Shown here one piece after another: positions 9,005-41,615 of a DNA stretch of 42,884 nt. Position 1 is the stretch's first letter. Each line of letters opens with the position of its first letter. The stretch comes from Archaeoglobi archaeon. Its GTDB lineage: Archaea; Halobacteriota; Archaeoglobi; Archaeoglobales; Archaeoglobaceae. The position numbers and the translations under genes were made by a program. The stretch is from assembly GCA_029259415.1 (NCBI GenBank), contig JAPDIW010000021.1, positions 1 through 42,884 of the forward strand. Direction: 5' to 3'. Under the pieces are notes generated by a model. It saw nothing but the letters and a program-made list of their open reading frames with translations, made no database searches and was not told where the DNA came from.

Positions 9005-9020
9005 GAATTTTGAAAGACTG

Positions 9021-14488: not shown

Positions 14489-15727
14489 GTGAAAATTGAA
14501 CGACCGAGAGGAACGAGAGATTTTCTGCCAGACGAAATGGAAAGAAGGAGAGAAATTGAGAGAAAAATGAGAAAAATTGCCGAAAGCTTTGGATACAGGG
14601 AAGTGATGACGCCGACCTTCGAGCACCTCGAACTCTTCACAAGAAAATCCGGAGAAGGGATTGTGGAAGAAATGTACGTTTTCAAGGACAAGTCTGGCAG
14701 AGACCTCGCTTTGAGACCTGAACTCACCGCGCCAGTAATGAGAATGTTCGTAAACGAGTGCAGTGTGATGCCAAGACCGCTTCGCTTTTACTATTTCGCA
14801 AACTGCTTCCGTTACGAAAGGCCACAGAAAGGCAGATACAGGGAGTTCTGGCAGTTTGGCGTTGAGCTTATCGGTTCCAAATCCTACCTTGCAGATGCCG
14901 AGGTGATAATTTTAGCAGATAAAATTCTGAAAGAGGTCGGTGTGAAGTTCAGCCTTGAAATAGGGCATGTTGGAATAATGAGACACCTTCTGAAACCTGT
15001 TGGTGAGGAGAAAGCATCGAAAATCATGAGACTGATAGATAAGGAGGATAGGGAGGGGCTTGAAAGGTACCTCGAAGAGATAAGGGTTGAGGGTGATTTA
15101 AGAGAAAAAATCTTCAGCTTGGTTGAGCTAAAAGGCGATGAATCAGTAATTGATGAGGCGAAGGAAATAGTCGATTACGATTTCAGCTATCTTGAGAGGC
15201 TTTCCTCATTGCTGAGAGATGTTGGTGTCGACTTTATTCTCAACCTGGGCATAGCGAGGGGACTGGACTACTACACGGGTGTTGTCTTCGAATGTTATGC
15301 CGAAGGCCTTGGGGCGCAGAAGCAGGTCTGCGGTGGAGGGAGTTATGAGCTCTCCTCACTCTTCGGTGGTCCTGTGACTCCGTCAACTGGATTTGCGATA
15401 GGCTTCGATAGGGTTTGCGAGGTTTGCAGGATTGAGGAGAAGAAAAGGGATGTTGTCGCAGTCATCTCATTCAAAGGACTTGAAAGCCATGCCTTCAGAG
15501 TTGCCAGCAAGCTTCGAGATGCTGGTATCACTGCGGTTGTTGATGTTATGGAAAGAAATCTGAAAAAGCAAATGAGCTTCGCAAACGAGATTGGGGCAAA
15601 ATACGCTGTCATCATAGCTCCAGAGGAAGTTAAAGAAGGGAAGGTCGCCATAAAGAACCTCGAAACGCAGGAGCAGGTTGTTATAGCTGAGGGTGAAATG
15701 CTAAAGTTGCTGAAATTTGGCGAGTAG
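14489..15727 (+). CDS. hisS: Histidyl-tRNA synthetase
   Basis: Class II aminoacyl-tRNA synthetase. Motif 1/2 regions include RPRGTRDFLPDEMERR, LRPELTAPVMR, FYYFANCFRYERPQKGRYREFWQFGVE; the His-specific box is LGIARGLDYYTGVVFE; motif 3 is GFAIGFDRV. The C-terminal anticodon-binding domain follows (about 320-412). It opens with a GTG start. Full length (412 aa). It is divergent from ubiD across a 160-bp AT-rich spacer that should hold both promoters. Confidence 0.97.
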   Translation: MKIERPRGTRDFLPDEMERRREIERKMRKIAESFGYREVMTPTFEHLELFTRKSGEGIVEEMYVFKDKSGRDLALRPELTAPVMRMFVNECSVMPRPLRFYYFANCFRYERPQKGRYREFWQFGVELIGSKSYLADAEVIILADKILKEVGVKFSLEIGHVGIMRHLLKPVGEEKASKIMRLIDKEDREGLERYLEEIRVEGDLREKIFSLVELKGDESVIDEAKEIVDYDFSYLERLSSLLRDVGVDFILNLGIARGLDYYTGVVFECYAEGLGAQKQVCGGGSYELSSLFGGPVTPSTGFAIGFDRVCEVCRIEEKKRDVVAVISFKGLESHAFRVASKLRDAGITAVVDVMERNLKKQMSFANEIGAKYAVIIAPEEVKEGKVAIKNLETQEQVVIAEGEMLKLLKFGE

Positions 15728-29840: not shown

Positions 29841-29913
29841 GGGGCCGTGGGGTAGCCTGGTAGCCTCTCGGCCTGGGGCGCCGGTGACCCGAGTTCAAAT
29901 CTCGGCGGCCCCA
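29841..29913 (+). tRNA. tRNA-Pro(GGG), integration target
   Basis: The 73-nt sequence has acceptor GGGGCCG/CGGCCCC with A73, anticodon stem TCGGC/GCCGG with loop CTGGGGC (anticodon GGG), and T-arm CGAGTTCAAATCTCG. A TATA-like TTTAAAAA sits at about 29811-29818. The 3' 43 nt are the left copy of the element's att repeat, so the intact tRNA gene was kept after integration. Confidence 0.95.
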
Positions 29914-29916
29914 CTT
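29871..29916 (+). repeat. attL (46-bp direct repeat, in tRNA-Pro)
   Basis: It begins GCCTGGGGCGCC in the anticodon loop and ends CCCCACTT just beyond the tRNA. It is identical over 46 bp to 41570-41615. The flanking bases differ on both sides. Confidence 0.93.
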
Positions 29917-30154
29917 GTTTATGGCGTTTAAACGACTCATACAGCGTTAAGAACTCTTCGAGCAGTTCATTTATCAGTGCAGACCTGTTAAATCCGAGTT
30001 TTTCGCATTTATCCCAGAGATCTTGTCTAATTTTCACGTGCCTATCTATCCACAGTTGTCCACTGTCGTCCTTCTTTATCCGTTTATGGATATTTTTATC
30101 CATAACACGCCTTACCGCCTCCTCATATACCTGCCTTATCATCCTATTACTCAC
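29871..30154 (-). CDS. Integrase N-terminal fragment, int(N), with RHH domain
   Basis: Reads from ATG at 30154 into the att repeat; the chromosomal frame runs on through the tRNA to 29792 but residues after about 95 are tRNA antisense. Residues about 38-72 (HVKIRQDLWDKCEKLGFNRS and LINELLEEFL) look like a ribbon-helix-helix. Residues 81-95 (VGPPRFELGSPAPQA) are encoded by the repeat and match the start of int(C). In the excised circle this joins int(C) in frame to give about 409 residues. In the integrated state no complete integrase is made, which locks the provirus in place. Confidence 0.82.
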
Positions 30155-30167
30155 CTCACATCACAGT

Positions 30168-30689
30168 TCATAATCGACCCTCCAACTTCTCCTTAAGCTC
30201 AGGGAAAGCTTTAAAGAACAGGTTGACGGCTTGAGGCATTGACAGTTGCTTTTCGGCTGCCCATTTGCTCAGTCTGACTTTGATTGCATCTGCTGGTTCT
30301 CTTCCGAGTTTCAAGCAATGAGCTTCAAACTTTTCGTAGTCCTGCAGGTCCTCAAAGACTATTTCGTGGAGTTCCCTAATAAGAGGTAAAGCATCTTGTA
30401 ACTCCTGCTGTTCCTGCTTTTCTGCTAATTTCTCTTTTAGTTCTTGGATTTCAGGCTTTATTTTATCAGCCCATTCCCAGAATTCATTAATCTTCTTTTC
30501 GATTTCAAGGAGTTTGACCATCTCTTTGGTTAGGAGTTCTTTACTATTGTTGTCACTAAAGAAATAGTGCTGAAGAAGATTACAAATCAACTTGCTCAGA
30601 TTACCTCCACTATCTCTGAAAGATTTTATGGCAACTGCCAGTTTCTCATCAGTAGTTGAGAAACTGAAGTTATACCGCATTGTAACCAC
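30168..30689 (-). CDS. RHH-type DNA-binding protein with coiled coil, 173 aa
   Basis: The N-terminal 40 residues (RYNFSFSTTDEKLAVAIKSF, then NLSKLICNLLQHYFF) have strand-helix-helix RHH character. A long coiled coil follows (INEFWEWADKIKPEIQELKEKLAEKQEQQEL), then a helical C-terminus. ATG at 30680 (MRYNFSF) is an alternative start. It lies 13 bp downstream-adjacent to int(N), on the same strand. The iteron/palindrome region is immediately upstream, so it may bind there as replication initiator, partition protein or autorepressor. No search possible. Confidence 0.65.
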   Translation of the reverse strand: MVTMRYNFSFSTTDEKLAVAIKSFRDSGGNLSKLICNLLQHYFFSDNNSKELLTKEMVKLLEIEKKINEFWEWADKIKPEIQELKEKLAEKQEQQELQDALPLIRELHEIVFEDLQDYEKFEAHCLKLGREPADAIKVRLSKWAAEKQLSMPQAVNLFFKAFPELKEKLEGRL

Positions 30690-30730
30690 CCCTATTTGAG
30701 CAGAAAAGTCCCCTTAACCAGTACCCAAAA

Positions 30731-30903
30731 CCTGTATTAAATTTAATAATTTCTGTTATTGATAATTAAATTAAAATAAAGACTAGTGAATCTTTACGAG
30801 AGTATATAGTGTTACTTTCTGTGTTAAGTTCACACCTGTATTATTAATAATAATACAGCCTGTATTATTAAACAACAGCTATAGGGATACTCTTTCTCGT
30901 AAA
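30731..30903. promoter_or_regulatory. AT-rich repeat region: candidate replication origin or operator
   Basis: Part of the 332-bp gene-free stretch 30690-31021. CCTGTATTA occurs at 30731, 30835 and 30859. A perfect 9-bp inverted repeat with 3-bp spacer, TGTATTATT-AAT-AATAATACA, covers 30837-30857. An outer pair TTTACGAGA (30793-30801) and TCTCGTAAA (30895-30903) brackets it, with AGAGTAT-like sequence next to each arm. Such nested repeats suit an iteron origin or a regulator's operator. The rest of the stretch (30904-31021) shows at most one 21-codon ORF and nothing else I can support. Confidence 0.5.
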
Positions 30904-31021
30904 CATTCCCTGAACTGAATAAAAATGTTGTCATGGTTGACCCCTTACAGGTTCAAGTTTACCTTCCTTGAGCATCTGCAACTGTATGGAGTCCATCAGT
31001 GCAGAGATCTTGAAGTGTAGA

Positions 31022-31129
31022 TTAACGGGCTATAACGTAGGACTGTTTCCAGTTCTCCTGTACTACCTGTCTATCCAAGGCGATTAAGAGGCCAAAGAGT
31101 TCATCCATGTAGTTTAGGGGATGATCCAT
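31022..31129 (-). CDS. Small hypothetical protein, 35 aa
   Basis: ATG at 31129 lies 4 bp after the stop of the preceding gene, with GGTGAGGG just before it as ribosome site. The product is MDHPLNYMDELFGLLIALDR followed by a short tail. It ends the left minus-strand operon. A 21-codon ORF in another frame follows (about 30957-31000) and might be a broken continuation. Translation is plausible but not certain. Confidence 0.4.
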   Translation of the reverse strand: MDHPLNYMDELFGLLIALDRQVVQENWKQSYVIAR

Positions 31130-31133
31130 TCCC

Positions 31134-31319
31134 TCACCTTCCGTTCATCCCCTTTGCAATCTGTCTGATTGTATCCTGTGGTCTAATCTCTTCCCATTCT
31201 GGAATTCCGAAGAATGGACAGGTTTTCGGCTCTTCATCATCAATCGTAACGAAGTAGCAGGGCCTCACGAGACAGGCGGAGCACTTCCAGAATCGATATG
31301 TGTGCTGTATCTGAATCAC
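31134..31319 (-). CDS. Small Cys-containing protein, 61 aa
   Basis: Cys at CSAC, RPCY and KTCPFF could hold a metal ion (zinc-ribbon-like). The remainder is EWEEIRPQDTIRQIAKGM. The start ATG overlaps the stop of the upstream nuclease gene by 4 bp (ATGA), so it is coupled to it. Function unknown. Confidence 0.65.
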   Translation of the reverse strand: MIQIQHTYRFWKCSACLVRPCYFVTIDDEEPKTCPFFGIPEWEEIRPQDTIRQIAKGMNGR

Positions 31320-31871
31320 CTCAAAATCGACGCTAACATCTCATAACTCAGCTTGGCCATCTCCGAGAGTCTCAGCCTCTTGTTCCAGTATTTCCCTGTT
31401 TGGCAGAAATCGTAAACCTCCCTGATCGGCTTGATGTACCATTCTCCCTGCCTCTCAACAACAATGTAAACCGGAATGCCCAGCTTCTCAGCCATCAGCT
31501 TCAGCGTCTTGTAGTGGTTGTACTTCAGCAGCACATCCTTGCCATTCGTCGTGAACTTGATCTCAAAGATGGCTTTGAACTCGTCTCCAACCCTGACGAT
31601 CTTATCAACGTTTGTTGCAAAGATCGGCTCCCAGATATTGTATTTCTCCACCACCTTATCAAGGAACCTGCTGAACTTCATGCTTCTAACGATTTCGCCG
31701 ATGTTGCCGGTGAGAAAGGTCTTGCAGTCGTTGATGAACTTGATGTCCTCGTGGTCTTCTGTCGTCAACTTGTAGAAGTTTAGGAAAGCCTCTATCTGCG
31801 AGCTTATCACGTTGGCCGAAGCTCTCAAAAAATTGGTAGTTATCCCTGAATCTCTTGGCCCTGGTGTCCAT
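31316..31871 (-). pseudogene. PD-(D/E)XK nuclease-like gene with a frameshift
   Basis: The reading frame from ATG at 31871 (MDTRAKRFRDNYQF) moves at an A-run on the plus strand (31827-31832) into the frame continuing to 31316. Removing one base gives one protein of about 184 aa: DTRAKRFRDNYQF-LRASANVIS. Residues include VDKIVRVGDEFKAIFEIKF, with a D...ExK nuclease core (FEIKF), then KTLKLMAEKLGIPVYIVVE as the following helix and strand. The ATG follows the previous stop directly. It may be an archaeal-virus nuclease such as a Holliday-junction resolvase or recombination helper. If the frameshift is a sequencing error the gene is intact. Confidence 0.6.
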
Positions 31872-32281
31872 TCAGATCACCCTTAAAACCGGCTTAAGTC
31901 TTGAAACGTTGAATATCCTTCCAATCAGATTTGCGATGTTTTCACTGTAAAAATTGAGCATCGCATGAACTCTCTGCCAATCAAGTTCTTTGATGCCCAT
32001 GAGCCATATTTCACCGTTCTGAATCGTGTAAACAACAAAGAGATAATGAGGATTCGGTTTTAAGCCGAGTTTGGTATGGTTCTCACGATAGAAAAAGAAT
32101 CTTCCGGGCCTCTTCTTGCCGGATCCGAGCACGTACCTTGAGGCGCCTTAATCTCGATGGTCTTAGCAAATTTGGCATCTTCAGCATCGTAGAATCCGTT
32201 AACTCTCTGCAGGTTGAACAGATCACAGATAACGTTCTCTATCAGCTCAGAAACCTCTTTTTGCCATGTCATTCTCGTCAC
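31872..32281 (-). pseudogene. Second PD-(D/E)XK nuclease-like gene with a frameshift
   Basis: ATG at 32281 opens MTRMTWQKEVSELIENVICD and reaches EDAKFAKTIEIKAPQG; then the frame must change near 32131-32140 to continue with YVLGSGKKRPGRFFFYREN to the stop at 31872. The joined product is about 136 aa. EIKAP is an ExK core, with the acidic residues of EDAKF before it. One base appears to be missing. It overlaps the upstream 129-aa gene by 4 bp. It is not clearly a relative of the adjacent nuclease, beyond sharing this core. Confidence 0.6.
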
Positions 32282-32667
32282 CTTAAGATATACTGGCCTT
32301 CCGTTGCGTTGAATTCCCTAGCAATCTCCAGGAACTCCTTAGCCTTCTTTTCCAAGATCTTTATCATTGCATCAGCTGTTCTCAATGTCGGATTTTCATC
32401 CATTAGCTTGATAACTTCCTTGTCATTCCACTTGACTGAATAGCTCTGGAAATACTCAACAACCATTATAACCGGGATATAGTCCATTTCATCATCTGGA
32501 ACTGCCATTTTGCTGATTCCCTGGAGCTTGAACATTATTCCGTATTCAACCCCTTGAGGATCTTGGAAGTAGTCAATCTTGTAATGAACTCTGACAAATG
32601 GATTTGGCTTAACCAGCTTCTTGAACTCCTCCAGGTCATAAACACGTTCAACTATCGCCTTGATCAA
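32278..32667 (-). CDS. Hypothetical protein, 129 aa
   Basis: TTG start at 32667 overlaps the stop of the preceding (broken) gene, TTGA. The protein is mixed alpha/beta, with VRVHYKIDYFQDPQGVEYGI and a helical acidic C-terminus (ADAMIKILEKKAKEFLEIA). No family is recognised. It overlaps the nuclease-like gene downstream by 4 bp, so it is part of one coupled operon. Confidence 0.7.
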   Translation of the reverse strand: MIKAIVERVYDLEEFKKLVKPNPFVRVHYKIDYFQDPQGVEYGIMFKLQGISKMAVPDDEMDYIPVIMVVEYFQSYSVKWNDKEVIKLMDENPTLRTADAMIKILEKKAKEFLEIAREFNATEGQYILR

Positions 32668-32964
32668 CCTCCCCTTCCATCTCTACTATTGGAGAGATTG
32701 GAACTCTCAAGGTAGTCGTTTGTCATCAAAACAGGCTCTGGCTTTTCCTTGTAGAGGTAGATATAGATTTCTGGATCGTCTGTAGAGCTATCTTGCTGCA
32801 AGATAAAATTAAACCTCTAAGAAATTCAACAGCATCCCTGAGAAGGTGAACGTTTACTTTAACCTTAGCAAACTTATCAGAATCGATTTCAGCCTTGATC
32901 AATCCAACAGCTCCATAATATCATCCTTTATCAGAACCTCACCTTTCATACCTTCCCAGGACAT
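32664..32964 (-). pseudogene. Small gene with two frameshifts
   Basis: ATG at 32964 gives MSWEGMKGEVLIKDDIMELL; one base seems missing near 32901-32910, after which the text continues GLIKAEIDSDKFAKVKVNVH and LLRDAVEFLRG. A second missing base at the T-run (plus 32811-32815) leads to FNFILQQDSSTDDPEIYIYL and YKEKPEPVLMTNDYLESS to the TGA at 32664-32666. Codon flow in each piece is protein-like. A reconstructed product is about 100 aa, family unknown. Confidence 0.5.
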
Positions 32965-32979
32965 CAGGCATCAGCCTCC

Positions 32980-33162
32980 TTAATGTTTTTCCCTCGCAAA
33001 ATCATCATCCAGCAAGAATCTGAACCTCAATGCTGAACAGAAGGAAAAGCGGCCGTCTTCAAGCGGTTCTATACAAGCCCTACCGATTTGAGCACATGTT
33101 TGTTGCAGATTTGCAGAACAATAGAACGTTCCCTTTCCTGCTTTTACCTTAAGTTCTGGCAT
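32980..33162 (-). CDS. Small Cys-containing protein, 60 aa
   Basis: MPELKVKAGKGTFYCSANLQ then QIGRACIEPLEDGRFSFCSA: four Cys, no clear spacing motif. It overlaps the upstream 112-aa gene by 14 bp. A good ribosome site (GGAGG) occurs after it for the next gene. Function unknown. Confidence 0.55.
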   Translation of the reverse strand: MPELKVKAGKGTFYCSANLQQTCAQIGRACIEPLEDGRFSFCSALRFRFLLDDDFAREKH

Positions 33163-33487
33163 CAGGCATCAGCCCCTTCCTTGCCTCAAGCCTGGTTTTA
33201 ATGTATCTCTTCAGATCCTCGAAAACAGCCTTTGCCGCCTCAGGTGTTGTTGCTGAAACCTGGACCCACTTCTTACCAAGAGTTCCAAACTTGCTTATCT
33301 TTACCTCGACGTCGCCTGAAACCTTGATTACGTACTGTTTGCTGTCTTCCCTGAACTCCGTGATCCCTCTTTTGGCCAGGCAGTTGAAAAACTCAGCATA
33401 GAACTCCTTTTCCCATCCACAAAATGGCTGAACTTCAAAGATTTCGCTGAACTTCCCATCTGCGTAGATCTGATAAAACAGCCTCAT
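33149..33487 (-). CDS. Hypothetical protein, 112 aa
   Basis: A mixed alpha/beta protein starting MRLFYQIYADGKFSEIFEV with a strand-rich centre (KQYVIKVSGDVEVKISKFG) and a C-terminal helix. No family is recognised. Overlaps the RHH gene upstream by 4 bp (ATGA) and the small Cys gene downstream by 14 bp. Confidence 0.7.
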   Translation of the reverse strand: MRLFYQIYADGKFSEIFEVQPFCGWEKEFYAEFFNCLAKRGITEFREDSKQYVIKVSGDVEVKISKFGTLGKKWVQVSATTPEAAKAVFEDLKRYIKTRLEARKGLMPDART

Positions 33488-33729
33488 TCCGCATCACCTC
33501 CTTCAACCAGCAAATCAGCCCTTACAAAATCCCCCAGCCTCTTGTTCTCGTTCAGGTCTGGGTAGTACTGCCTCAGAAGCAAGTCAATGGCCTCTTCAAT
33601 GGCTTTGCTGCGGTTCTTGAATTCACCCTGCTCAACCAGCTCGTCAAGGAGATAAAGCCTGTCCATGGTTGTCTTGAAAGATACCATCATCTTCTGCTTC
33701 CGCAGCCACTTCAGAACGGAGCCGTTCAA
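33484..33729 (-). CDS. RHH-type regulator, 81 aa
   Basis: MVSFKTTMDRLYLLDELVEQ then RSKAIEEAIDLLLRQYYPDL is a strand-helix-turn-helix RHH (CopG/NikR-like) module preceded by a basic leader (KWLRKQK). The stop overlaps the downstream gene start by 4 bp, and the start overlaps the next RHH gene by 4 bp, so it is translated with its neighbours. DNA target unknown; possibly heterodimer partner of the adjacent RHH protein. Confidence 0.7.
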   Translation of the reverse strand: MNGSVLKWLRKQKMMVSFKTTMDRLYLLDELVEQGEFKNRSKAIEEAIDLLLRQYYPDLNENKRLGDFVRADLLVEGGDAE

Positions 33730-33977
33730 GCCAAATCACCTCCTTCAAAAACCTCCACATCTCCGTCCGCATCCACAAAACTGCTGCCGTTGCGGCGGTT
33801 CTCTGCGATTTTTGGCTTTCTTATTTCCAAAATTTTGTCTCTGACAGCATCTCTAACAAAATCCGGAACAGAAAGGTATCCTAAGTTTCTGTTCTCCTTT
33901 ACAAGTCTGTCGATTTCACTGTATAGCTCTGTAGGCAGTGGAATGTATTTCATTTTCTTACCTTCTACCACTTCCAT
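33726..33977 (-). CDS. RHH regulator (paralogue of the divergent RHH gene), 83 aa
   Basis: The core MKYIPLPTELYSEIDRLVKE and GYLSVPDFVRDAVRDKILEI closely parallels the divergent plus-strand protein (ISIPREMFDEIERIIEE and SITDFVKDAVREKITEIRK), so they are recent paralogues. ATG at 33953 (MKYIPLP) is an alternative start. It is the first gene of the left minus-strand operon. Binding the inverted repeats in the shared 89-bp spacer would control both directions. Confidence 0.75.
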   Translation of the reverse strand: MEVVEGKKMKYIPLPTELYSEIDRLVKENRNLGYLSVPDFVRDAVRDKILEIRKPKIAENRRNGSSFVDADGDVEVFEGGDLA

Positions 33978-34067
33978 ATGGTATGTATATGGTAGATAAG
34001 TTTAAAAGGTTTGTGGTTTGAGTATGGTATAGGTATGGTCAAAAGAAAACTTTATCATCTACCATAT
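33976..34067. promoter_or_regulatory. Divergent operator/promoter region with inverted and direct repeats
   Basis: ATATGGTAGAT at 33987-33997 and its inverse ATCTACCATAT at 34057-34067 form an 11-bp perfect inverted repeat. Further TATGGT copies occur around 33976-33983 and 34023-34038. They lie between two divergent, paralogous RHH genes. RHH dimers usually bind such short inverted or direct repeats, so autoregulation is likely but inferred. Confidence 0.6.
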
Positions 34068-34296
34068 GCGTATAGTATATATGCCAGTAGGAAAGTACAA
34101 AGGCATTAGCATACCGAGAGAAATGTTTGATGAGATCGAGAGAATAATCGAAGAGCATCCAGAACTCGGCTACTCGTCGATTACTGATTTCGTTAAAGAT
34201 GCAGTCCGTGAAAAAATAACGGAAATCAGAAAGCTACATTTAAAACCACAAAAACTCATCAGAGAAACCGACGCAGGTGAAGAGGACCTGATATGA
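34066..34296 (+). CDS. RHH antitoxin-like regulator, 76 aa
   Basis: RHH core ISIPREMFDEIERIIEEHPE then SSITDFVKDAVREKITEI, with a variable tail ending DAGEEDLI. ATG at 34081 (MPVGKYKGIS) is an alternative start that leaves the operator arm fully upstream. Its TGA overlaps the next ATG (ATGA). First of a three-gene operon with DUF4258- and DUF2283-type proteins, an arrangement common in toxin-antitoxin-like cassettes. Confidence 0.75.
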   Translation: MRIVYMPVGKYKGISIPREMFDEIERIIEEHPELGYSSITDFVKDAVREKITEIRKLHLKPQKLIRETDAGEEDLI

Positions 34297-34566
34297 CCGA
34301 GATCCAGTTCACCGACCACGCCAGAATGAGACTCCGAGAAAGAGAAATCTCTGAGCAGGATGTTATTGAAACCGTAAAGAACCCGGATGAGGTTCCTGTT
34401 TGATGCCGATAAAGGTAACCTCGTTGCAGTTAAGAAGGTTGGAGATATGTATCTCATCGTGATTTATGCTCCTTCCAAACCCGTTAGGGTCATCTCAATC
34501 ATCCAGACCTCAAAGTTAAATATTGTTGAAAATAGAATAAAAAGAGGTAGGTGGGTAAGGTTATGA
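34293..34566 (+). pseudogene. DUF4258-like (candidate toxin) gene with one extra base
   Basis: ATG at 34293 reads FTDHARMRLREREISEQDVI and NPDEV, then stops at 34401-34403. Skipping one C of the CC at 34395-34396 continues LFDADKGNLVAVKKVGDMYL and SIIQTSKLNIVENRIKRGRW to the TGA at 34564-34566, as in DUF4258 (HARERMRERGI..., ...VVKRVGDYLVVVY). The joined length is about 90 aa. Its terminal TGA overlaps the ATG of the next gene. The shift is either a mutation, a sequencing error or a rare programmed shift. Confidence 0.7.
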
Positions 34567-34763
34567 AGGTAAGATACGATCCCGAAGCAGATATCCTCTA
34601 CATCCTCGTGAAGGAGGGGAAGGTTAAGGACACCGAAGAAGTAGATGAAGATCTCTTCGTTGAATTCGGAGAAAACGGCGAAATCATGGGGATCGAGATC
34701 TGGCAGGCCGGAAAGCACATCGTTTCCGAGATCCTCAAGGTTGTGGAGATCGCCAAGAGATAA
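34563..34763 (+). CDS. DUF2283-family protein, 66 aa
   Basis: MKVRYDPEADILYILVKEGK then EVDEDLFVEFGENGEIMGIE and ILKVVEIAKR is the DUF2283 signature, found next to DUF4258 in many prokaryotes. ATG at 34563 overlaps the previous gene's TGA; a GTG at 34551 is less likely. It is thought to be the neutralising partner in toxin-antitoxin-like pairs, but biochemical proof is limited as far as I know. Confidence 0.85.
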   Translation: MKVRYDPEADILYILVKEGKVKDTEEVDEDLFVEFGENGEIMGIEIWQAGKHIVSEILKVVEIAKR

Positions 34764-34776
34764 GGGGGCTGGCAGC

Positions 34777-35100
34777 ATGCTTGCCTCCGTCGAGATTGGC
34801 AAATCCAAATTCTGGATCGAATTCGTAATCAGAACGAGAAAGCGGATAAAGGAATACCACTATGACGATTCAACGAGAATCATTGAAATCGAAAGAAGGC
34901 CTGAGGACGTGCTTATTTTAGGCGTTACAAGGCATGAAGATTTTGTTAGGGAAGTTCTGAGGGAAATTGAATACCTGTTTGTAGTTGAGGATCTGAGCAG
35001 AGATGAAGTTTTAGAAAAGATCAAAGACATTTTCGGCCTGAACGATGAAGATGCGAAAGAACTGCTGGACTACGCTGAATGGTACCTGTTTAACGGGTGA
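34777..35100 (+). CDS. Hypothetical protein, 107 aa
   Basis: ATG at 34777 follows GGGGGCTGGCAGC. The protein begins MLASVEIGKSKFWIEFVIRT, has strand-rich RKRIKEYHYDDSTRIIEIER, then helices (FVREVLREIEYLF, DEDAKELLDYAEWYLF). No family recognised. It probably continues the RHH-DUF4258-DUF2283 transcript. Confidence 0.65.
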   Translation: MLASVEIGKSKFWIEFVIRTRKRIKEYHYDDSTRIIEIERRPEDVLILGVTRHEDFVREVLREIEYLFVVEDLSRDEVLEKIKDIFGLNDEDAKELLDYAEWYLFNG

Positions 35101-35102
35101 TA

Positions 35103-35480
35103 ATGTGCGAAAGACAGAGCCAAATCAAGTGCAACTCAATTCAGCCGAATTCTTACGCTAATAGCTCTTTTGCTATAATCTCGACATTCACGATCCCAGT
35201 CATGAAGCTGCATTATATCCGTGTTTATTTGGGCCAACTACTTAACCCAGCTTGGATGGCTCTGATTTTCTTACCGTTATTTGCCGGTTTCATCTACAGG
35301 GGTTTCAGCACAATAGATGGGATTATTTTGTTTGTGTACATCTTAATCCTCGGTTCTCAAACGACGACGGTATCCATTTTAGGGTTCAAATATACGGCTT
35401 CGCCACATCTCGAAGCAGGTTATTTTATCCTTCTATTAAGCTCGATTCTCCTGATCGTTGCCGGACTTATTAAAAAATGA
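35103..35480 (+). CDS. Membrane protein, about 125 aa, three helices
   Basis: ATG at 35103 (GTG at 35097 is possible) sits just after the previous stop. Three hydrophobic segments: around SSFAIISTFTIPV (weak), WMALIFLPLFAGFIYRGF and the long IILFVYILILGSQTTT to YFILLLSSILLIVAGLIKK. The N-terminal 40 residues are low in hydrophobics and may be extracellular or disordered. It converges with the 47-aa membrane gene, separated by 2 bp. Function unknown. Confidence 0.6.
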   Translation: MCERQSQIKCNSIQPNSYANSSFAIISTFTIPVMKLHYIRVYLGQLLNPAWMALIFLPLFAGFIYRGFSTIDGIILFVYILILGSQTTTVSILGFKYTASPHLEAGYFILLLSSILLIVAGLIKK

Positions 35481-35482
35481 GG

Positions 35483-35626
35483 CTATTTTTCATTCAATCG
35501 ACCCTTTTTCTTAAGTGCGATGTAGGCTGCGACTACACCTGTTGCATACCCGGAAACAAATCCGAGAAAGAGGAATATAATGGCAACATCAAGCAGCTTG
35601 TCTGGCGGAACGCACAGCTCAAACAT
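35483..35626 (-). CDS. Single-helix membrane protein, 47 aa
   Basis: MFELCVPPDKLLDVAIIFLF then LGFVSGYATGVVAAYIALKK and a basic tail: one transmembrane helix with small residues and a cytoplasmic Lys cluster. The ATG overlaps the (frame-corrected) stop of the ATPase by 8 bp, so it is translated from the same operon. Last gene of the structural-like module. Possibly a small virion membrane protein; inferred. Confidence 0.6.
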   Translation of the reverse strand: MFELCVPPDKLLDVAIIFLFLGFVSGYATGVVAAYIALKKKGRLNEK

Positions 35627-36504
35627 CCTTACCACCTTCAAAAACACCGTAGTAGTAAACCCTACCGTTGGTCTCGCCGTAGAATTGTGTTGTGGCTTTA
35701 TCTGTAAAGCTCTTGTCCGGGAAGAATATGACGCACTGGTCCGTCCTCAATGTCTGCAGCATCGGGCTGAACTTCTTCAGCTTCTTGATCTCCCTGTCTG
35801 CCTCCTCGGCAATTCTCTTGACTATTATCCAGTTGAAGCAGCTCTTAATTCCGCTCCTTATTTTGTTTAAGCTGTGCGTCGATGCTATCAGCCTGACCCC
35901 CCAGGCTCCTCAGCTTTTCCACGTTAAGCTGAATCCATCCACCTATCTTGTACTGAGCATAACCGCCAACTTCATTGTGCCTCGAAGGAGCCACATTGTG
36001 AAACTCATCGAAAAATAAAGCCATCGGCGTAGGCAGTTCGTAGCTGTGAGCCTTCAGAATCAGGGTTCTGAAGATGTCGGCAATAACCTTGGTGTAGGTT
36101 GTAGGATCAAAAATAAAGCGGTAAAAGCTGATGATGTTGACCTTATCCGGGTGGATGTAGTTCCAAACACCATCCTGGATAAACCTAGTCATGTCGCATT
36201 CAACCAGCTCGAAATCATAGTTCTCCACCACGATTCTGCAACCTGCAGGAACTATAACTCTCATCTCCCTGCCCGTCACCTCTCCGAGCTTGAACGCCTC
36301 ATCGTTCTTCCCTATATCGAACCATACAATTGTTTCATCCGGATTCTCGTGAGAAATCAAATCGGCAAGCCAGTAGAGTAGCTGAGTTTTTCCGCTGCCG
36401 GTTATGCCTACAACTATCAAATGTTCGCCGGGCCTCTTCACGAACTGGCTTATGAACCTGTTTTTCCAAGCTGCTATACGTCGTTGACGAGGTAGCATCA
36501 TCAT
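35619..36504 (-). pseudogene. FtsK/HerA-type ATPase, interrupted by a frameshift in an A-run
   Basis: Walker A VGITGSGKTQLL (about 32-43) and Walker B PMALFFDEFHNVAP (about 160-173), with an arginine/sensor-rich C-terminus, identify a P-loop ATPase of the FtsK/HerA/VirB4 class, as used in archaeal-virus packaging or virion assembly. The frame stops at 35845, yet the next frame continues SGIKSCFNWIIVKRIAEEAD to YYYGVFEGGKDV, ending at 35619. Removing one A from the AAAA run (35861-35864) gives about 294 aa: LKQ-IRSGIKSCFNW. Overlaps the upstream gene by 4 bp. Real mutation, sequencing error and programmed slippage are all possible. Confidence 0.7.
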
Positions 36505-36875
36505 CTTTTGGACCCTCCAAAGAAGAACTCCGACACAACACTTTCATCCAGCAGCTCAAAGTTCTCAACTATGTTTATTATGCGAAAACGGATCTCGTCA
36601 AGCTCCTGCTCGAATTTCAGCCTGGCCTTATGGCTAAGCTCAAAGTCCTGGTCGTAAATAAACCTGTAGTTCTTTCTAAGCTCCTTAAGCTTCTTCTCTA
36701 TTTCGTTTAGCTCTTTGTGAATTTCTTCAGCATCCTTGCCATCTTCGAAGAAGAACCTCGCCTTAACCCAGTCAAAAATGAAGTAGAGCAGGTTAAGCCT
36801 CGCATACAGCGTATCATCTGGCTCGTAAACCATTTTGTTAAAGGCCATTACGAGAATGTAGCTGCTACTCTTCAC
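36501..36875 (-). CDS. Coiled-coil hypothetical protein, 124 aa
   Basis: GTG at 36875 is chosen because AGGAGG lies 7 nt upstream and it overlaps the preceding stop; a longer ORF begins at 36905. Two parts: a helical start with hydrophobics (LNLLYFIFDWVKARFFF) and a charged coiled coil (HKELNEIEKKLKELRKNYRF). It overlaps the ATPase start by 4 bp. Function unknown; in an operon with ATPase, an assembly cofactor is possible. Confidence 0.6.
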   Translation of the reverse strand: MKSSSYILVMAFNKMVYEPDDTLYARLNLLYFIFDWVKARFFFEDGKDAEEIHKELNEIEKKLKELRKNYRFIYDQDFELSHKARLKFEQELDEIRFRIINIVENFELLDESVVSEFFFGGSKR

Positions 36876-37224
36876 TGCCTCGCCTCCTGTTGAAGATCTT
36901 CCCAAGCCAGCTTACCTTTTTGGTCGGCTGATCCTCCTCAATAGGATATGGGTAGCGTCCGATGTACTGTATTGGCCGCTTGAATATCGTAACCGCCTCC
37001 TGCCTCCCTTTCCTGTCAAGGCTGCGTTTAAGGCTCATGTGGTGCTCAAACAGGTTCATTAGGTTGGGTAGGGGTATTATACCATCTATGGCCCGGTAGA
37101 ACGATATTGCTCTAATCTCGTCGTAATCCAAGTCTGAGAAATTCTCGTTCAGCTCCTCGCCAAGGAACTTCTCGATCATCAGTGTTTTTCTCACTTCCGG
37201 AACGATTATCTCGCCTTCATCCAT
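36865..37224 (-). CDS. Hypothetical soluble protein, 119 aa
   Basis: ATG at 37224 follows GAGGTGAT. It is acidic at the N-terminus (MDEGEIIVPEVRKTLMIEKF) and basic at the C-terminus (KKVSWLGKIFNRRRGSEE); the tail may be an amphipathic helix that touches the membrane. No family recognised. In the structural-like operon. Confidence 0.65.
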   Translation of the reverse strand: MDEGEIIVPEVRKTLMIEKFLGEELNENFSDLDYDEIRAISFYRAIDGIIPLPNLMNLFEHHMSLKRSLDRKGRQEAVTIFKRPIQYIGRYPYPIEEDQPTKKVSWLGKIFNRRRGSEE

Positions 37225-37244
37225 TTTATCACCTCAGAACATCC

Positions 37245-37643
37245 TCAGAACATCAGACCTAAGAAAAAGCCTGCACCGATGCCAATGAGCAGAGCAGCAA
37301 TAATGGTTTTCATTGCCGGCTTAAACTTGAATGCTCTTTGCAAAATCTCAGGCTCAAGAATCGTGCTGATAAGTTGCGGAGATGTCTTGAGCTTCAGCAC
37401 TTGCTCATCCACTTCTGGTTCGAGAACTACACCTTTCTCCCCACTTAGCAGATAAACGTACTTGCCATCAAATCTGATAGGCCTGCCGTTCAATGTGAAC
37501 GTTTGCCCGGTCATGGTATCCACGTAGGTGTTGCCCATCTTCTTCAGCTTTGCAGTCCTGAAGCTCATTCCGCCATCTTCCACAATTATACCGTTCTTAC
37601 TCTTCCTAAACACGCCTAACACCTCCATACTTCTTTTTGGCAA
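37245..37643 (-). CDS. Tail-anchored protein, 127-132 aa
   Basis: The soluble part has FHA-like/beta character (IIVEDGGMSFRTAKLKKMGN, GRPIRFDGKYVYLLSGEKG). The last 25 residues, AMKTIIAALLIGIGAGFFLG, form one C-terminal helix, so most of the protein faces one side of the membrane. A start at ATG 37628 (MEVLGVF) is preferred over TTG at 37643. Overlaps the small upstream ORF. No known family. Confidence 0.65.
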   Translation of the reverse strand: MPKRSMEVLGVFRKSKNGIIVEDGGMSFRTAKLKKMGNTYVDTMTGQTFTLNGRPIRFDGKYVYLLSGEKGVVLEPEVDEQVLKLKTSPQLISTILEPEILQRAFKFKPAMKTIIAALLIGIGAGFFLGLMF

Positions 37644-37743
37644 ATTTAAGTAACATTACGCAGATTTCAACAGGGTTGTTGCCCGAAATTTTGTGTATAG
37701 CTGTTCCGTTCTCAACAAAAACGACTTTAAACAACAACACCAC
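37606..37743 (-). CDS. Small basic protein, 45 aa
   Basis: GTG at 37743 follows the stop of the 322-aa gene by 3 bp, with a GGGGG tract as possible ribosome site. Reads VVLLFKVVFVENGTAIHKIS then NPVEICVMLLKFAKKKYGG with a basic end. Overlaps the tail-anchored gene's 5' end. The position in the operon and codon flow support it, but it is short and unverified. Confidence 0.45.
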   Translation of the reverse strand: MVLLFKVVFVENGTAIHKISGNNPVEICVMLLKFAKKKYGGVRRV

Positions 37744-37746
37744 CCC

Positions 37747-38715
37747 CTAAACCGGTTTTAACGCCTGAACAACCTTGCTAACTATATCTATGAAAGTCCG
37801 CACAAGGCCGATGGTGAATTCAAACAACGCTCTGTGCCAGTTCACGTATTTTCTCATGAACGTGTAGAAGTTTCTCGATGTCCCTGCTGAGAATGCCAAG
37901 GCAAATGCTTCGAATAACGCAAACGTCAACAGTCCGTTATCGACGAATATTAGCTTAATGTAATACAAGCCTCCTGATAAAATGAAATACAGAGAATCAA
38001 ATGTCGTTACAAGAAGCCCTCCATAGGGTATTTTCTTTACTTGTTCCTTAAGCCATTCTCCGGATTCTCCAATTAGGTTTTTAGTGTTGTTAAGCAAGTT
38101 GCTGATGTCAAAGGGATTCTGCGTTATGCTCTGCCATTCCTCCATTGTACAATAATAAACTTCAAGATGTGCTTCATCAGTAGAGCTGAAAACAACCTGG
38201 TTGAACACCAGGAAACTCCCCAAGTCGTATGATAAGGGGCCTGTTGTACTCGCCTGAAGCGGATTTAAATAAATATACACATCAATCTCTACTCTGTTTT
38301 GCAGCAAACCACCAAAGCCTGTTGGAATGGCCCCTTCCACGTCTGGCTCAGCTGCATAGTATTGGATTTTAATGTCGTAATCATTGAAAACTCCGCCGAA
38401 GTACGTTATCTCCTGTGAAACCGTCGTTCCATTTGGATATGTCAGATTGACTATGAAGTGCTTCCATGCACCAAAAGCACCTTCGGACCTCGACTTTACC
38501 GTCAGCACGTAGTTTTGGCCAAATGCGTTGAGATTGAACGTCTGGATGCTCCAGTCATCGCTAAAAACAATGTCGTTGGCGTAGATGCTGAAAATAACGT
38601 AGCCCTGCGGTGCGTTAAAGTTAGCCTGCTTAACCCTTCCCATGTCCGCCTGCTGATAAGCTGAAACCGTACTTACCGCCAGAAGCAGCAGCACAAAGAT
38701 TAGCAGGGGCCTCAT
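37747..38715 (-). CDS. Secreted membrane-anchored protein, candidate virion envelope/spike protein, 322 aa
   Basis: Signal peptide LLIFVLLLLAVSTVSA then a beta-rich ectodomain of about 180 residues (QGYVIFSIYANDIVF, NYVLTVKSRSEG, RVEIDVYIYLNPLQ) with Asn-glycosylation-type sites (NLT, NGT, NNT). An amphipathic region follows (EWLKEQVKKIPYGG), then two or more hydrophobic helices and a basic C-terminus. Size, signal peptide and C-terminal membrane region are as expected of a virus spike or envelope glycoprotein, but no sequence family is recognised. Largest protein of the module. Confidence 0.65.
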   Translation of the reverse strand: MRPLLIFVLLLLAVSTVSAYQQADMGRVKQANFNAPQGYVIFSIYANDIVFSDDWSIQTFNLNAFGQNYVLTVKSRSEGAFGAWKHFIVNLTYPNGTTVSQEITYFGGVFNDYDIKIQYYAAEPDVEGAIPTGFGGLLQNRVEIDVYIYLNPLQASTTGPLSYDLGSFLVFNQVVFSSTDEAHLEVYYCTMEEWQSITQNPFDISNLLNNTKNLIGESGEWLKEQVKKIPYGGLLVTTFDSLYFILSGGLYYIKLIFVDNGLLTFALFEAFALAFSAGTSRNFYTFMRKYVNWHRALFEFTIGLVRTFIDIVSKVVQALKPV

Positions 38716-38716
38716 T

Positions 38717-39157
38717 TTACCTCCTCCTAACAGCTCTCATCAGCATTCCGAACATGCTCATCATCGCTACAAGAATCGCCAGGCGGATAAGTGCAGGTGC
38801 TGAGGAGTAGAGTTCCTGTATTCCTTCATTCAGGCTTCCTGCCGTAGAGCCGGTTGTGCCTCCAGAACCTCCTGCTGTAGTTGTTGGAGTCGCCGAGATC
38901 GGCATGAGTTCAACCGTTACATCTTTTTGATTATCTCCAACCTCCACACTGCCAGAAATAGTGAAATAGCCCTGTGCACTTACCGTGTAGCTGTAGGTGT
39001 TGTTTTTGGGAACTTCGAACCACGTGAAGCCGTTACTGTTCGTTATCTTCGTCTTGCCGTTTACAGTTACGTAGGCTCCACTAATCGCCTCTTTCGTCTC
39101 AGAATCAAGCACTGTAAAAGTTAAAGCAGTGTTGTTTGTTGGATCTGGAAGCAACAA
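38717..39157 (-). CDS. Ig-like (carboxypeptidase-regulatory-type) tail-anchored protein, 146 aa
   Basis: The core ALTFTVLDSETKEAISGAYV, TNSNGFTWFEVPKNNTYSY and SGSVEVGDNQKDVTVEL is a beta-sandwich of the CarboxypepD_reg type. A Thr/Gly/Ser-rich linker follows (TTAGGSGGTTGSTAGS), then a single helix IRLAILVAMMSMFGMLM and RRR. It looks exported with the domain outside, yet no signal peptide precedes it. The start is TTG at 39157 with no good ribosome site; it overlaps the DUF5658-like gene by 37 bp in another frame. It may be the frame-shifted second half of that gene. Confidence 0.6.
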   Translation of the reverse strand: MLLPDPTNNTALTFTVLDSETKEAISGAYVTVNGKTKITNSNGFTWFEVPKNNTYSYTVSAQGYFTISGSVEVGDNQKDVTVELMPISATPTTTAGGSGGTTGSTAGSLNEGIQELYSSAPALIRLAILVAMMSMFGMLMRAVRRR

Positions 39158-39573
39158 GATGATGATGTATCATATTGTGCATTATAGTTTTTAGAACTTA
39201 CTTGGGAAAGCGTAAAATTGCCTTTCTCAATTATAACGCCATTTTCTTCATAAATTTCAGCACTTGCGATGAGTACAACGTTGTTTACAACTATAACAGC
39301 ATAAACAAACAGTAGAACCACTGCAACATTAATGCCACTGCGCCTTACTTGCCTCAGCTTTGAGCAGGTAGTTATTTTGTAAAGCAAAATCAAAGCTGCA
39401 AGCTTTATAATGAAAAGTAATGTGAAGGTGATGAACCAATTACCAATAAGATCGTTAATTGCCACTACATACTGGTTCTGCTCCTCGAGCCAGTTAATTC
39501 CGATAACTGAGGTCAGATAATCCGCAGATATCAGCACAGCCAAAAAAATGAAAAGAAAATCAAGCTTTCTCAT
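39121..39573 (-). CDS. DUF5658-like four-helix membrane protein, 150 aa
   Basis: Four hydrophobic segments within about 110 residues: FLFIFLAVLISADYLTSVIG, WFITFTLLFIIKLAALILLY, INVAVVLLFVYAVIVVNNVV. The ADYLTS motif in the first helix resembles DUF5658. After residue 110 it reads AEIYEENGVIIEKGNFTLSQ and ends abruptly at a Ser/Cys-rich run. The ATG overlaps the stop of the basic 56-aa gene. The tail may be the start of the Ig-like protein's exported part, lost by a frameshift. Confidence 0.65.
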   Translation of the reverse strand: MRKLDFLFIFLAVLISADYLTSVIGINWLEEQNQYVVAINDLIGNWFITFTLLFIIKLAALILLYKITTCSKLRQVRRSGINVAVVLLFVYAVIVVNNVVLIASAEIYEENGVIIEKGNFTLSQVSSKNYNAQYDTSSSCCFQIQQTTLL

Positions 39574-39740
39574 TTCCGCCTCCTCCTCCTCACATGCTTA
39601 ACCTTATGCGGCCTGCCTCGGATGTACACCTTCACATGGCCAGGAGTCTTGGCAAAAACACCAGTAGCATGCCCATAAGCCAGCCAGCGCCTGTATGCTT
39701 TCTTGCTACTGAAATTCATCTTCTTAATCTTCTTACCCAT
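39570..39740 (-). CDS. Very basic 56-aa protein, candidate virion DNA-binding protein
   Basis: Reads MGKKIKKMNFSSKKAYRRWL, AYGHATGVFAKTPGHVKVYI and RGRPHKVKHVRRRRRK: about 23 Lys/Arg/His of 56. Start ATG at 39740; TGA overlaps the next ATG (ATGA). The AYxxWLAYGHxxGxFxxTPGxxxVxIRGxPHKV pattern looks conserved, as if selected, and I have the impression of similar small proteins in other archaeal viruses or proviruses, not confirmed. Such a protein could condense DNA in a virion or bind nucleic acid as a regulator. Confidence 0.7.
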   Translation of the reverse strand: MGKKIKKMNFSSKKAYRRWLAYGHATGVFAKTPGHVKVYIRGRPHKVKHVRRRRRK

Positions 39741-39750
39741 AACTACCACC

Positions 39751-40107
39751 TTATTTGAAAATCACTATCAGGAGATACCCACCACAAATTATGACGACAG
39801 CAAACAGGAGATAACTGAGCATTGGCGGAATAGAGGCCTTGAACAGCTCCAATGCGTTAAGCGGATTCTGAAACCAAACTTGCTCGGTCGGCTTGAAAAC
39901 AAAGATGTAGCTCATGCTGTCGTTAAGATTAAGCGTTATCGTATCCGTGGTGTTGTACTCTCCTACATAGTTGCCGAGGTGGTCGTAAACTACAATCTTC
40001 GTACCCTTTATCAGCTGCAGATCGCTAAGAGTTATCGTTACATTCTCGGCTGCCGCCGGGACTATTCCTAAAAATAAAATAAGGAATACTGTAGCTTTCA
40101 GGTTCAA
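39751..40107 (-). CDS. Secreted, C-terminally anchored small protein, 118 aa
   Basis: Signal peptide ATVFLILFLGIVPAAA, then a small beta domain (NVTITLSDLQLIKGTKIVVY, DHLGNYVGEYNTTDTITLNL) and a C-terminal helix PPMLSYLLFAVVIICGGYLL. TTG start with AAGGAGGTG upstream. Likely exposed on the cell or virion surface. Comparable in layout to the 322-aa neighbour. No family recognised. Confidence 0.65.
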   Translation of the reverse strand: MNLKATVFLILFLGIVPAAAENVTITLSDLQLIKGTKIVVYDHLGNYVGEYNTTDTITLNLNDSMSYIFVFKPTEQVWFQNPLNALELFKASIPPMLSYLLFAVVIICGGYLLIVIFK

Positions 40108-40119
40108 TACAGCACCTCC

Positions 40120-40314
40120 TTACCTCATGAACCTGAATGCATCCCTTATTGCTCCGATGATGCTGTCAAAGAGTCCCGTGACGAACCCTACAACGATGAG
40201 TATCAGAATCACTGGCACGACAGCGACTACCAGGTTGCCGATGCTTGGCATTATGCTTCCTGCCCCTTCAATCAACTCCCCTATATCCGTCCAGTTAACC
40301 GTCAAATCGGTCAT
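40120..40314 (-). CDS. Small single-helix membrane protein, 64 aa (candidate major virion membrane protein)
   Basis: MTDLTVNWTDIGELIEGAGS at the N-terminus, one long helix (LVVAVVPVILILIVVGFVTG) and an amphipathic C-terminus LFDSIIGAIRDAFRFMR with basic residues. A longer ORF begins at 40332 but ATG at 40314 matches the usual start. It leads the right minus-strand operon, where abundant virion proteins would be expected. No signal peptide cleavage site. Resembles small coat proteins of enveloped archaeal viruses in size and topology only. Confidence 0.6.
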   Translation of the reverse strand: MTDLTVNWTDIGELIEGAGSIMPSIGNLVVAVVPVILILIVVGFVTGLFDSIIGAIRDAFRFMR

Positions 40315-40393
40315 AATAAAATAGGAGTTCAAATTATATTAATATCTGCAGATTTCGATGGCTATGTTTGACATCTATCTATTTTTTATTTTA

Positions 40394-40627
40394 TTACTTA
40401 CAGTTTGTTGTTTGAGCTTGCAGGTATCGCCCCACATCAAGCTTCCCTGTTTGCCTCAGCCAGACCTCAAGAAGGTGATTGATCAGATCCGACAGAACTA
40501 CACCTTCTTTTTCCAGTATCTCTTTATATATTCTCTCGATCCAGATTGTAGTCTTTACTCTGTCCTTCTTGTTTGTTGCAATCAAATAATAGGTAAGGCT
40601 AAACTTTTCGAGATCAAGTGTGTTCAT
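40394..40627 (-). CDS. RHH protein coupled to integrase, 77 aa
   Basis: DRVKTTIWIERIYKEILEKE then VLSDLINHLLEVWLRQTG is an RHH-like strand-helix-helix. The ATG overlaps the stop of int(C) by 4 bp, so translation couples to the integrase. It may work as an excisionase/directionality factor or a repressor of the integrase promoter; inferred. The element holds about six RHH-type proteins in all. Confidence 0.65.
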   Translation of the reverse strand: MNTLDLEKFSLTYYLIATNKKDRVKTTIWIERIYKEILEKEGVVLSDLINHLLEVWLRQTGKLDVGRYLQAQTTNCK

Positions 40628-41613
40628 CTCTTTTTCCTCCTAATCTCCATAATCATCTTCTCAGCCTCGTCTGGACTTGAATTAATCAGCTTTGTCAGAA
40701 CTGGTGCAATTTCTGCATAATACTCGTCTGCATCTTCCCTTAACTCTATGTAGTTCGTGAACTCAACACTTTTTTCAATCTCGCTTGGCCTGCCGAGCAT
40801 GAAATTGCGTTCATCCTTAGGAACTCCGAGCTTCTTCAGCAGGTTGTTAACGAATTTGCGGATGTATTTTGCAGAAACAAGAGTTTGTTTGATAACTCCT
40901 TCGATTTCGACCTTATACTTGTAGCGGATAACTTTCTTTGCATATTGATATCCTAAATCAAAACTGCAATTCTTTTTGAACTGCTCAAGTAATTTTCTGG
41001 CAAGCCATAACGGCATGTAACATTCATAAGCCTCCTTGTTCTCAGAACCTATTTCACCCATGTTGTATCTGGCAAATCCCCTATCCTCGAAAATCTCCAG
41101 CTTGTCTGGATCGAAGGTATTGAGCATGTCAACGATGTGGTCAAGCCTCAAACCGCTGTAGAGCATTAGCTGAAATACCAGGTAATAGTTTTCGTTAAGA
41201 TGCGTTCTGAAAAACCTATCTGCCTCGATTATTGCCCTGATCTCGGGGATCTTCTTGTCAGTTTTCGCTTTAGGAATTGGTAGAATTGCTTTGAACTCTT
41301 CAGCATTGTAGCGGTCTATAAGCTTCTTTTCTACCATGAAGTTAAGAAGATTCCTGACAGCTTTTGAGAAGTTGGCCTTGTTCTTCTCAAGGCTGTCATA
41401 TATTTCTTTCAGCTGCTCCGGAGTTGTTATGACTGTGAACCTTATCGTTTTGTCCAGGATGCTTATGTAGCTCCTCCATGTTTTCTCCGCTATCTTGCCC
41501 TTAAACCACTGAATTAAATCATCTCGTAGCTCTGAATAGCGTATAATCGGTTGTGCTCCGAACTGGCTCGCCTGGGGCGCCGGTGACCCGAGTTCAAATC
41601 TCGGCGGCCCCAC
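40624..41613 (-). CDS. Tyrosine integrase catalytic part, int(C)
   Basis: The first 15 residues (MGPPRFELGSPAPQA, GTG start) are the att-encoded antisense of tRNA-Pro. Residues 30-120 form the SAM-like core-binding domain (TWRSYISILDKTIRFTVITT). Catalytic box I is LMLYSGLRLDHI with Arg156. Box II is SAKYIRKFV (KxxR with Arg252, as in SSV-type enzymes lacking the usual His), and the nucleophile is likely Tyr288 in EFTNYIEL. The fused protein with int(N) would be about 409 aa. Without its N-terminus it lacks the RHH part; whether it can act alone is unknown. Confidence 0.88.
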   Translation of the reverse strand: MGPPRFELGSPAPQASQFGAQPIIRYSELRDDLIQWFKGKIAEKTWRSYISILDKTIRFTVITTPEQLKEIYDSLEKNKANFSKAVRNLLNFMVEKKLIDRYNAEEFKAILPIPKAKTDKKIPEIRAIIEADRFFRTHLNENYYLVFQLMLYSGLRLDHIVDMLNTFDPDKLEIFEDRGFARYNMGEIGSENKEAYECYMPLWLARKLLEQFKKNCSFDLGYQYAKKVIRYKYKVEIEGVIKQTLVSAKYIRKFVNNLLKKLGVPKDERNFMLGRPSEIEKSVEFTNYIELREDADEYYAEIAPVLTKLINSSPDEAEKMIMEIRRKKR

Positions 41614-41615
41614 TT
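41570..41615 (+). repeat. attR (46-bp direct repeat)
   Basis: Exact copy of 29871-29916. The half tRNA left here lacks the 5' part (the preceding bases AACTGGCTC do not match the tRNA), so this is a tRNA remnant, not a functional gene. It encodes the start of int(C) on the minus strand. Confidence 0.93.

Follow-up and report, generated by a model that had tools for sequence, protein, structure and literature searches.

The window analyzed here is a stretch of 42,884 nucleotides from an Archaeoglobi archaeon (GenBank assembly GCA_029259415.1, contig JAPDIW010000021.1). An initial annotation, made from the letters of the sequence, reported a tightly coupled cluster of minus-strand genes and suggested that it was the structural module of an undescribed, pleolipovirus-like membrane virus. 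All of the minus-strand open reading frames (ORFs) that it named are present at 35,483 to 40,627. Because syntenic homologues exist in many genomes, the cluster is not a chance arrangement; judged by these comparisons, it is real and conserved. The feature is larger than was first described, however, and belongs to a mobile element that spans 29,871 to 41,615. We lean towards the reading that this element represents a new family of 11.7-kb integrative elements that spread in membrane particles of their own encoding, either virions or plasmid vesicles.

Most of the genes were described correctly. The 64-amino-acid (aa) membrane protein is a 70-aa one-helix protein (g70) and the very basic 56-aa protein is a 59-aa ORF (g59), the shorter lengths having been counted from inner methionines; the secreted membrane proteins of 118 and 322 aa (g118 and g322) and the tail-anchored protein (g132, 132 aa) are as claimed. 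The P-loop ATPase is also present, but its gene is frameshifted and the 219-aa ORF is only its first part. What had been listed as two genes, a "DUF5658-like" protein of 150 aa and an "Ig-like" protein of 146 aa, are what remains of the two ends, N-terminal and C-terminal, of a single ∼600-aa gene, here called BIG. As the annotation stated, no capsid, polymerase, or relaxase was detectable in scans against Pfam, PHROG, and NCBIfam.

The element is bounded by a 46-bp direct repeat at 29,871 to 29,916 and 41,570 to 41,615, the two copies being 100% identical and spaced 11,699 apart. On the left, the repeat forms the 3′ portion of an intact tRNA-Pro gene; on the right, it falls within the 5′ end of an ORF for a tyrosine integrase. 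Once the two ends of the element are brought together, int(N), the 46-bp repeat, and int(C) form a single uninterrupted integrase in one frame, and the joined protein matches Phage_integr_3 (PF16795) at 4.3e-31 in a Pfam scan. Split integrases of this kind are the "suicidal" SSV/pT26-2 type (reviewed in PMC8371274). Among the integrases tested, the closest is that of Archaeoglobus veneficus pleomorphic virus 1 (AvPV1; 1.4e-57), followed by those of ApPV1, pGE2, and pT26-2 (phmmer, 5.9e-22 to t26-1p). The element has in common with SSV-type elements the PF16795 domain and a gene split by integration at a tRNA-derived attachment site, but the likeness is confined to the integrase: the PHROG scan gave no match to a coat protein of the VP1/VP3 type of Fuselloviridae and spindle viruses, for which no dedicated profile comparison was made. 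The copy in Geoglobus acetivorans SBH6 (L008), at about 1.735 to 1.747 Mb of the chromosome, is intact, with a 44-bp repeat in tRNA-Glu and an integrase split in the same way. Locus L009, unlike the window, has an apparently full-length 382-aa integrase (13270 to 14418); its attachment sites did not turn up in the 20 kb examined.

Of 59 genomes in the class Archaeoglobi, 7 have a relative of g322, among them the window's own genome. Across 394 genomes of the phylum, a 19-member g322 profile had matches in 21, and in 16 of these the match was strong. The module thus occurs in Archaeoglobi and in methanogens of the same phylum, including Methanolobus profundi Mob M and a Methanosarcinaceae metagenome-assembled genome, and several genomes have two copies. 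Its order is nearly fixed: g70, g118, (g59), BIG, g322, (g45), g132, g119, g134, and the ATPase, with the regulator g77 placed at varying ends. In one element (L007, 13063 to 14003), two copies of the g70-type small membrane protein stand in tandem. Protein searches of phage and plasmid collections gave no match to the window ATPase, to g322, or to a Methanolobus ATPase, and IMG/VR viral contigs contained no relative, the single match being confined to the P-loop. The family is apparently uncatalogued. The initial claim of an undescribed module of membrane and surface proteins with a translocase is borne out by its conservation, by the lack of matches in the virus and plasmid collections that were searched, and by the fast variation of its outer proteins; the proposed pleolipovirus-type link was not supported (see below).

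The features of the element and the evidence for each are given in Table 1. Hydropathy gives g70 one helix, and many of its relatives have a second, signal-like helix ahead of it. BIG proteins usually have a signal sequence and a C-terminal helix; their domains are of the CarboxypepD/PEGA type and sometimes of the carbohydrate-binding type. g119, g134, and the ATPase are nearly free of helices by hydropathy and are predicted to be soluble. The ATPase has weak HerA, TrwB, and CedB matches in Pfam and NCBIfam, and Pfam assigns 15 ATPases of the family to HerA/TrwB and not to Zot.

Table 1. Features of the integrative element, in window coordinates
Feature	Position	Strand	Basis
tRNA-Pro(GGG), intact host gene and integration site	29841..29914	+	ARAGORN
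Left attachment repeat, 46 bp	29871..29916	.	Identical to 41570-41615
int(N), N-terminal part of split integrase	29917..30154	-	In frame through the attachment repeat into int(C) once ends are joined
w173, with relatives in the G. acetivorans element (L008), L010, and AvPV1	30168..30689	-	phmmer/iterative profile
w170, possible nuclease-like protein	31316..31828	-	phmmer 7.7e-7 to pT26-2 t26-28p, 4e-30 to L008
Two small regulators: 81-aa ribbon-helix-helix and 83-aa CopG-like	33484..33977	-	PF01402 above cutoff (81 aa); inspection only (83 aa)
Divergent element genes: 76-aa CopG-like, DUF2283 protein (34551-34763), frame within 34645-35100, 127-aa membrane protein	34066..35480	+	ORFs; PF10049 1.5e-19
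g54, one-helix protein; homologue or look-alike directly before the ATPase in relatives	35483..35647	-	phmmer 2.6e-9 to L011; hydropathy
HerA/VirB4-type ATPase, frameshifted; ORF 35845-36504 is the first 219 aa, the rest in another frame	35625..36504	-	Profile A8
g134, soluble coiled-coil-like conserved protein	36501..36905	-	Family in 13 further loci
g119, soluble conserved protein	36865..37224	-	Family in 14 further loci
g132, small beta domain and a tail anchor at the C terminus	37245..37643	-	Family in 15 further loci; helix at very C terminus in nearly all
g45, small protein conserved in Archaeoglobi copies	37606..37743	-	Sequence relatives
g322, with signal peptide, beta-rich outer domain, and several membrane helices at the C terminus	37747..38715	-	Alignment A7 (19 members), hydropathy, low-confidence model
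BIG, remnants of one ∼600-aa adhesin-like surface protein: 150-aa N-part and 146-aa CarboxypepD C-part, different frames	38717..39573	-	Single ORFs of relatives; CarboxypepD_reg 7.9e-8
g59, small, very basic protein confined to Archaeoglobi copies	39570..39749	-	phmmer 2.7e-30 to L008
g118, with signal peptide, beta domain, and a membrane helix at the C terminus	39751..40107	-	Family in 16 further loci
g70, small membrane protein with one helix (34-52) and a basic C terminus; candidate major particle protein	40120..40332	-	Family in about 16 further loci
g77, ribbon-helix-helix-like regulator	40394..40627	-	Family in about 12 further loci; hhalign 73.8% to AvPV1 gp02
int(C), catalytic portion of the suicidal tyrosine integrase; the attachment repeat is taken in by ORF 40624-41613	40624..41569	-	PHROG integrase 1e-34
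Right attachment repeat	41570..41615	.	Direct repeat

Between close relatives, the outer proteins diverge far more than the ATPase. The ATPases of L033 and L037 are 92% identical and the N-terminal halves of their BIG proteins 42%; for L039 and L041 the values are 80% (ATPase), 88% (g70), and 20% (BIG N-half). The ATPase and g322 trees also disagree, with L038 and L043 sisters for the ATPase and apart for g322, and surface and packaging cassettes have therefore been exchanged between elements. For g322, L007 ranks with the closest relatives of the window (53%), yet identity between its back-half proteins and those of L008 is only 19 to 25%. The M. profundi contig that carries the module also has a separate inovirus-like element bearing Zot, whose adhesin-like protein shares the N-terminal domain of BIG (37% over 238 residues, 2e-24). 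Fast divergence, exchange, and a shared adhesin domain are signs that these would be host-recognition proteins.

As assembled, the window copy is probably defective or inactive, with a truncated BIG, a frameshifted ATPase, and a split integrase. BIG is a single ORF of 605 to 644 aa in the relatives L007, L008, and L011, and both window remnants match such single ORFs (L011, 7899 to 9833, both parts; L008, 9276 to 11138; L007, 10393 to 12210); the window lacks the middle part, and the two remaining ends lie in different frames. A surplus G in a G6 run near 35,896 to 35,901 (CTGGGGGGTCAGG) shifts the frame of the ATPase gene, and the remainder runs in another frame to about 35,625. ATPase profile A8, built from 15 relatives, accordingly matches two frames, 35899 to 36498 at 2.4e-67 and 35625 to 35903 at 1.5e-27.

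This damage might mean that the element has decayed or been domesticated and that what is left of its module either has an envelope function in the host or has no function, and BIG is fragmented in L043 as well. We give this explanation little credence, since there are many intact relatives in different genera, with constrained ATPases and fast-varying outer proteins, and since the lesions may be sequencing or assembly errors, one falling in a G6 run and the other possibly arising where the draft contig dropped the middle of the gene. In L043 (10624 to 12214), BIG is broken into several frames; its loss or damage thus recurs.

In our preferred reading, spread in self-encoded membrane particles, the free element would be circular and its integrase gene whole. 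Insertion at tRNA-Pro splits that gene in two, and exit would then presumably depend on an intact integrase supplied in trans. Each protein of the front cassette (g70, g118, BIG, and g322) is predicted to be exposed on the outside of the cell membrane. The back cassette comprises the tail-anchored g132, the soluble g119 and g134, and a putative DNA-pumping ATPase of the HerA/VirB4 type. A budding, g70-coated patch may receive the element's DNA from the ATPase, and recognition of the next host may fall to BIG together with g322 and g118. This reading is supported by the element bounds, the tRNA target, the in-frame split integrase (with like anatomy in the G. acetivorans copy), the nearly fixed gene order in Archaeoglobi and methanogens, the predicted topology, and the fast-varying outer proteins. 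The conflict between the ATPase and g322 trees, the BIG domain found also in the inovirus-like element of M. profundi, and the relationship of the ATPase to t26-14p, with its weak HerA/TrwB/CedB matches, count for it as well. Several points weigh against it. Neither a particle nor an excised circle nor expression has been seen for the family; no replication protein was recognized in the element; the window copy has lesions in BIG and the ATPase; gene order is rearranged in L042, and L044 is incomplete; and the AlphaFold models of g322 and the ATPase (mean predicted local distance difference test scores of 44 to 45) are too poor for fold comparison. Moreover, fast outer proteins combined with an ATPase would also fit a small contact-dependent apparatus for secretion or conjugation-like DNA transfer, in which BIG and g322 mediate contact with the recipient.

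Such an apparatus is a serious rival, although we consider it unlikely. The architecture resembles the core of the pT26-2 plasmid family, for which one hypothesis proposes such transfer (PMC6972569), and the ATPase is similar to pT26-2 t26-14p and to TrwB/CedB models. Yet the three database scans gave no clear matches to conjugation proteins, which the initial annotation had named as grounds for dropping its virus reading: no relaxase, type IV secretion system component, or other secretion component was found, and there was only the weak similarity to coupling ATPases. The coat-like g70 and the adhesin domain in common with the inovirus-like element also fit particles better.

Membership in the pT26-2 family itself was rejected by comparison with pT26-2, pGE2, and pMEFER01; the family is nonetheless the closest analogue. 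Of the seven pT26-2 core genes (t26-5p, t26-6p, t26-7p, t26-11p, t26-13p, t26-14p, and t26-15p), only t26-14p and a domain of t26-5p show any relationship. The t26-14p ATPase is the closest among the ATPases compared (86%, aligned over Walker B and the following motifs), t26-5p reaches 28% in the CarboxypepD domain only, and t26-6p (0.3%) and the other core proteins are unmatched. The profile E value of about 1e-53 for the pMEFER01 ATPase is inflated because that sequence was included in the profile, and the 86% figure was relied on instead. The two families are alike in being integrative, in having a CarboxypepD/PEGA surface protein, a multihelix protein, and a HerA/VirB4-like ATPase, and in the suicidal SSV-type integrase, a trait of the Thermococcales members of pT26-2; in addition, t26-28p is related to w170. 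They differ in size (11 to 12 kb for our elements versus 17 to 38 kb) and in hosts: pT26-2 reportedly occurs in Thermococcales and Methanococcales only (PMC6972569), whereas our elements are in Archaeoglobi and methanogens of their phylum. For pT26-2, a novel mode of DNA transfer has been put forward, perhaps through vesicles like those of pR1SE (PMC6972569). The haloarchaeal plasmid pR1SE, which spreads in vesicles, encodes membrane and surface proteins and a VirB4/packaging-type ATPase (PMC10818511); by these descriptions, our element resembles it and other haloarchaeal plasmid-vesicle elements. By analogy, the element would work most like pT26-2 or, by description, pR1SE, and according to the tests made it is not a pT26-2 member.

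That the element is a relative of the thalassapleoviruses (AvPV1 and GacPV1) or pleolipoviruses, as its order of small membrane protein, surface protein, and ATPase had suggested, is now highly improbable. These viruses infect the right host class (PMC10919331) and integrate at tRNA genes, and the AvPV1 integrase is the closest to that of the element. However, membership was rejected when the module was compared with real thalassapleovirus and HGPV1 proteins. The VP4 membrane fusion protein, which is V-shaped, is absent (hhalign profile-profile values of 0.8% for g322 and 1.0% for BIG), and the ATPase is unrelated to the NTPases of these viruses (∼12%; 11.8%). The module has no homologue of gp08, and no VP3 was among the best hhalign matches of g70, short hydrophobic proteins comparing poorly in any case. 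Furthermore, genuine VP4 loci lie elsewhere. The window's own genome has a thalassapleovirus-type VP4-like gene on another contig (G000:C57, 9189 to 10379; 1.4e-85), the only place there that the VP4 profile matches, and in G. acetivorans SBH6 there is a VP4 locus elsewhere in the genome, with the GacPV1 sequence present at 100% apart from the module copy. Of the features of AvPV1, only the integrase is clearly common to the element, and the pleolipovirus reading has for the most part already been refuted.

An inovirus-like filamentous virus, with g70 as major coat, BIG as attachment protein, and the ATPase with a small membrane partner as extrusion motor, is improbable. g70 resembles the inovirus coat plan in being short, with one helix and a basic end, but a one-helix structural protein of 30 to 90 aa is an unspecific trait. 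The inovirus pI is likewise an FtsK-HerA ATPase (PMC6813254), and the BIG domain links the module to the inovirus-like element of M. profundi, its neighbor on NZ_FOUJ01000007. That element (L067; G200:C10:111000-130900, 5933 to 15696) encodes a Zot ATPase, an integrase, a replication-like protein, and the 418-aa adhesin-like protein. We infer that it is the published archaeal inovirus provirus (Roux 2019). Identity of the module with that provirus was rejected: the Zot ATPase, the replication-like protein, and the small coat-like proteins form a separate cluster ∼7 kb away. The module ATPase is not of the Zot/pI type; Zot/pI had no match at the module in any genome tested, its matches being elsewhere in those genomes or absent. 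g322, g132, g119, and g134 have no recognized inovirus counterpart in the PHROG scan, nor was a rolling-circle replication protein recognized in the element. Zot-family matches in three Archaeoglobi genomes (G022:C139, G037:C6, and G038:C3 and C9) mark possible inovirus-like elements there.

The remaining half of the element encodes ribbon-helix-helix proteins, a DUF2283 protein, and mostly genes of no recognized function in Pfam. The small ribbon-helix-helix/CopG-like and DUF2283 proteins are clustered at 33149 to 34763 and are possibly regulators or antitoxins. A 129-aa protein (32278 to 32667) has a weak similarity to MobC_2 (0.0027), below the cutoff.

It is possible, although we hold it only tentatively, that the elements constitute a new family of membrane-enveloped archaeal viruses, lacking VP4 or a known capsid, in hyperthermophilic Archaeoglobi and in methanogens, with exchangeable surface and packaging cassettes. 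In either form, virion or plasmid vesicle, the results define a family of integrative elements of Archaeoglobi and several methanogen families that has almost no matches in Pfam, PHROGs, and NCBIfam. The family would sit between plasmids and viruses, in keeping with the idea put forward for pT26-2 that DNA is moved by self-encoded membrane proteins and a translocase. Its cultured members, G. acetivorans SBH6 and M. profundi MobM, make the question of infectious vesicles or virions directly testable, and the inovirus-adhesin domain in common with BIG offers a handle on host recognition in methanogens.

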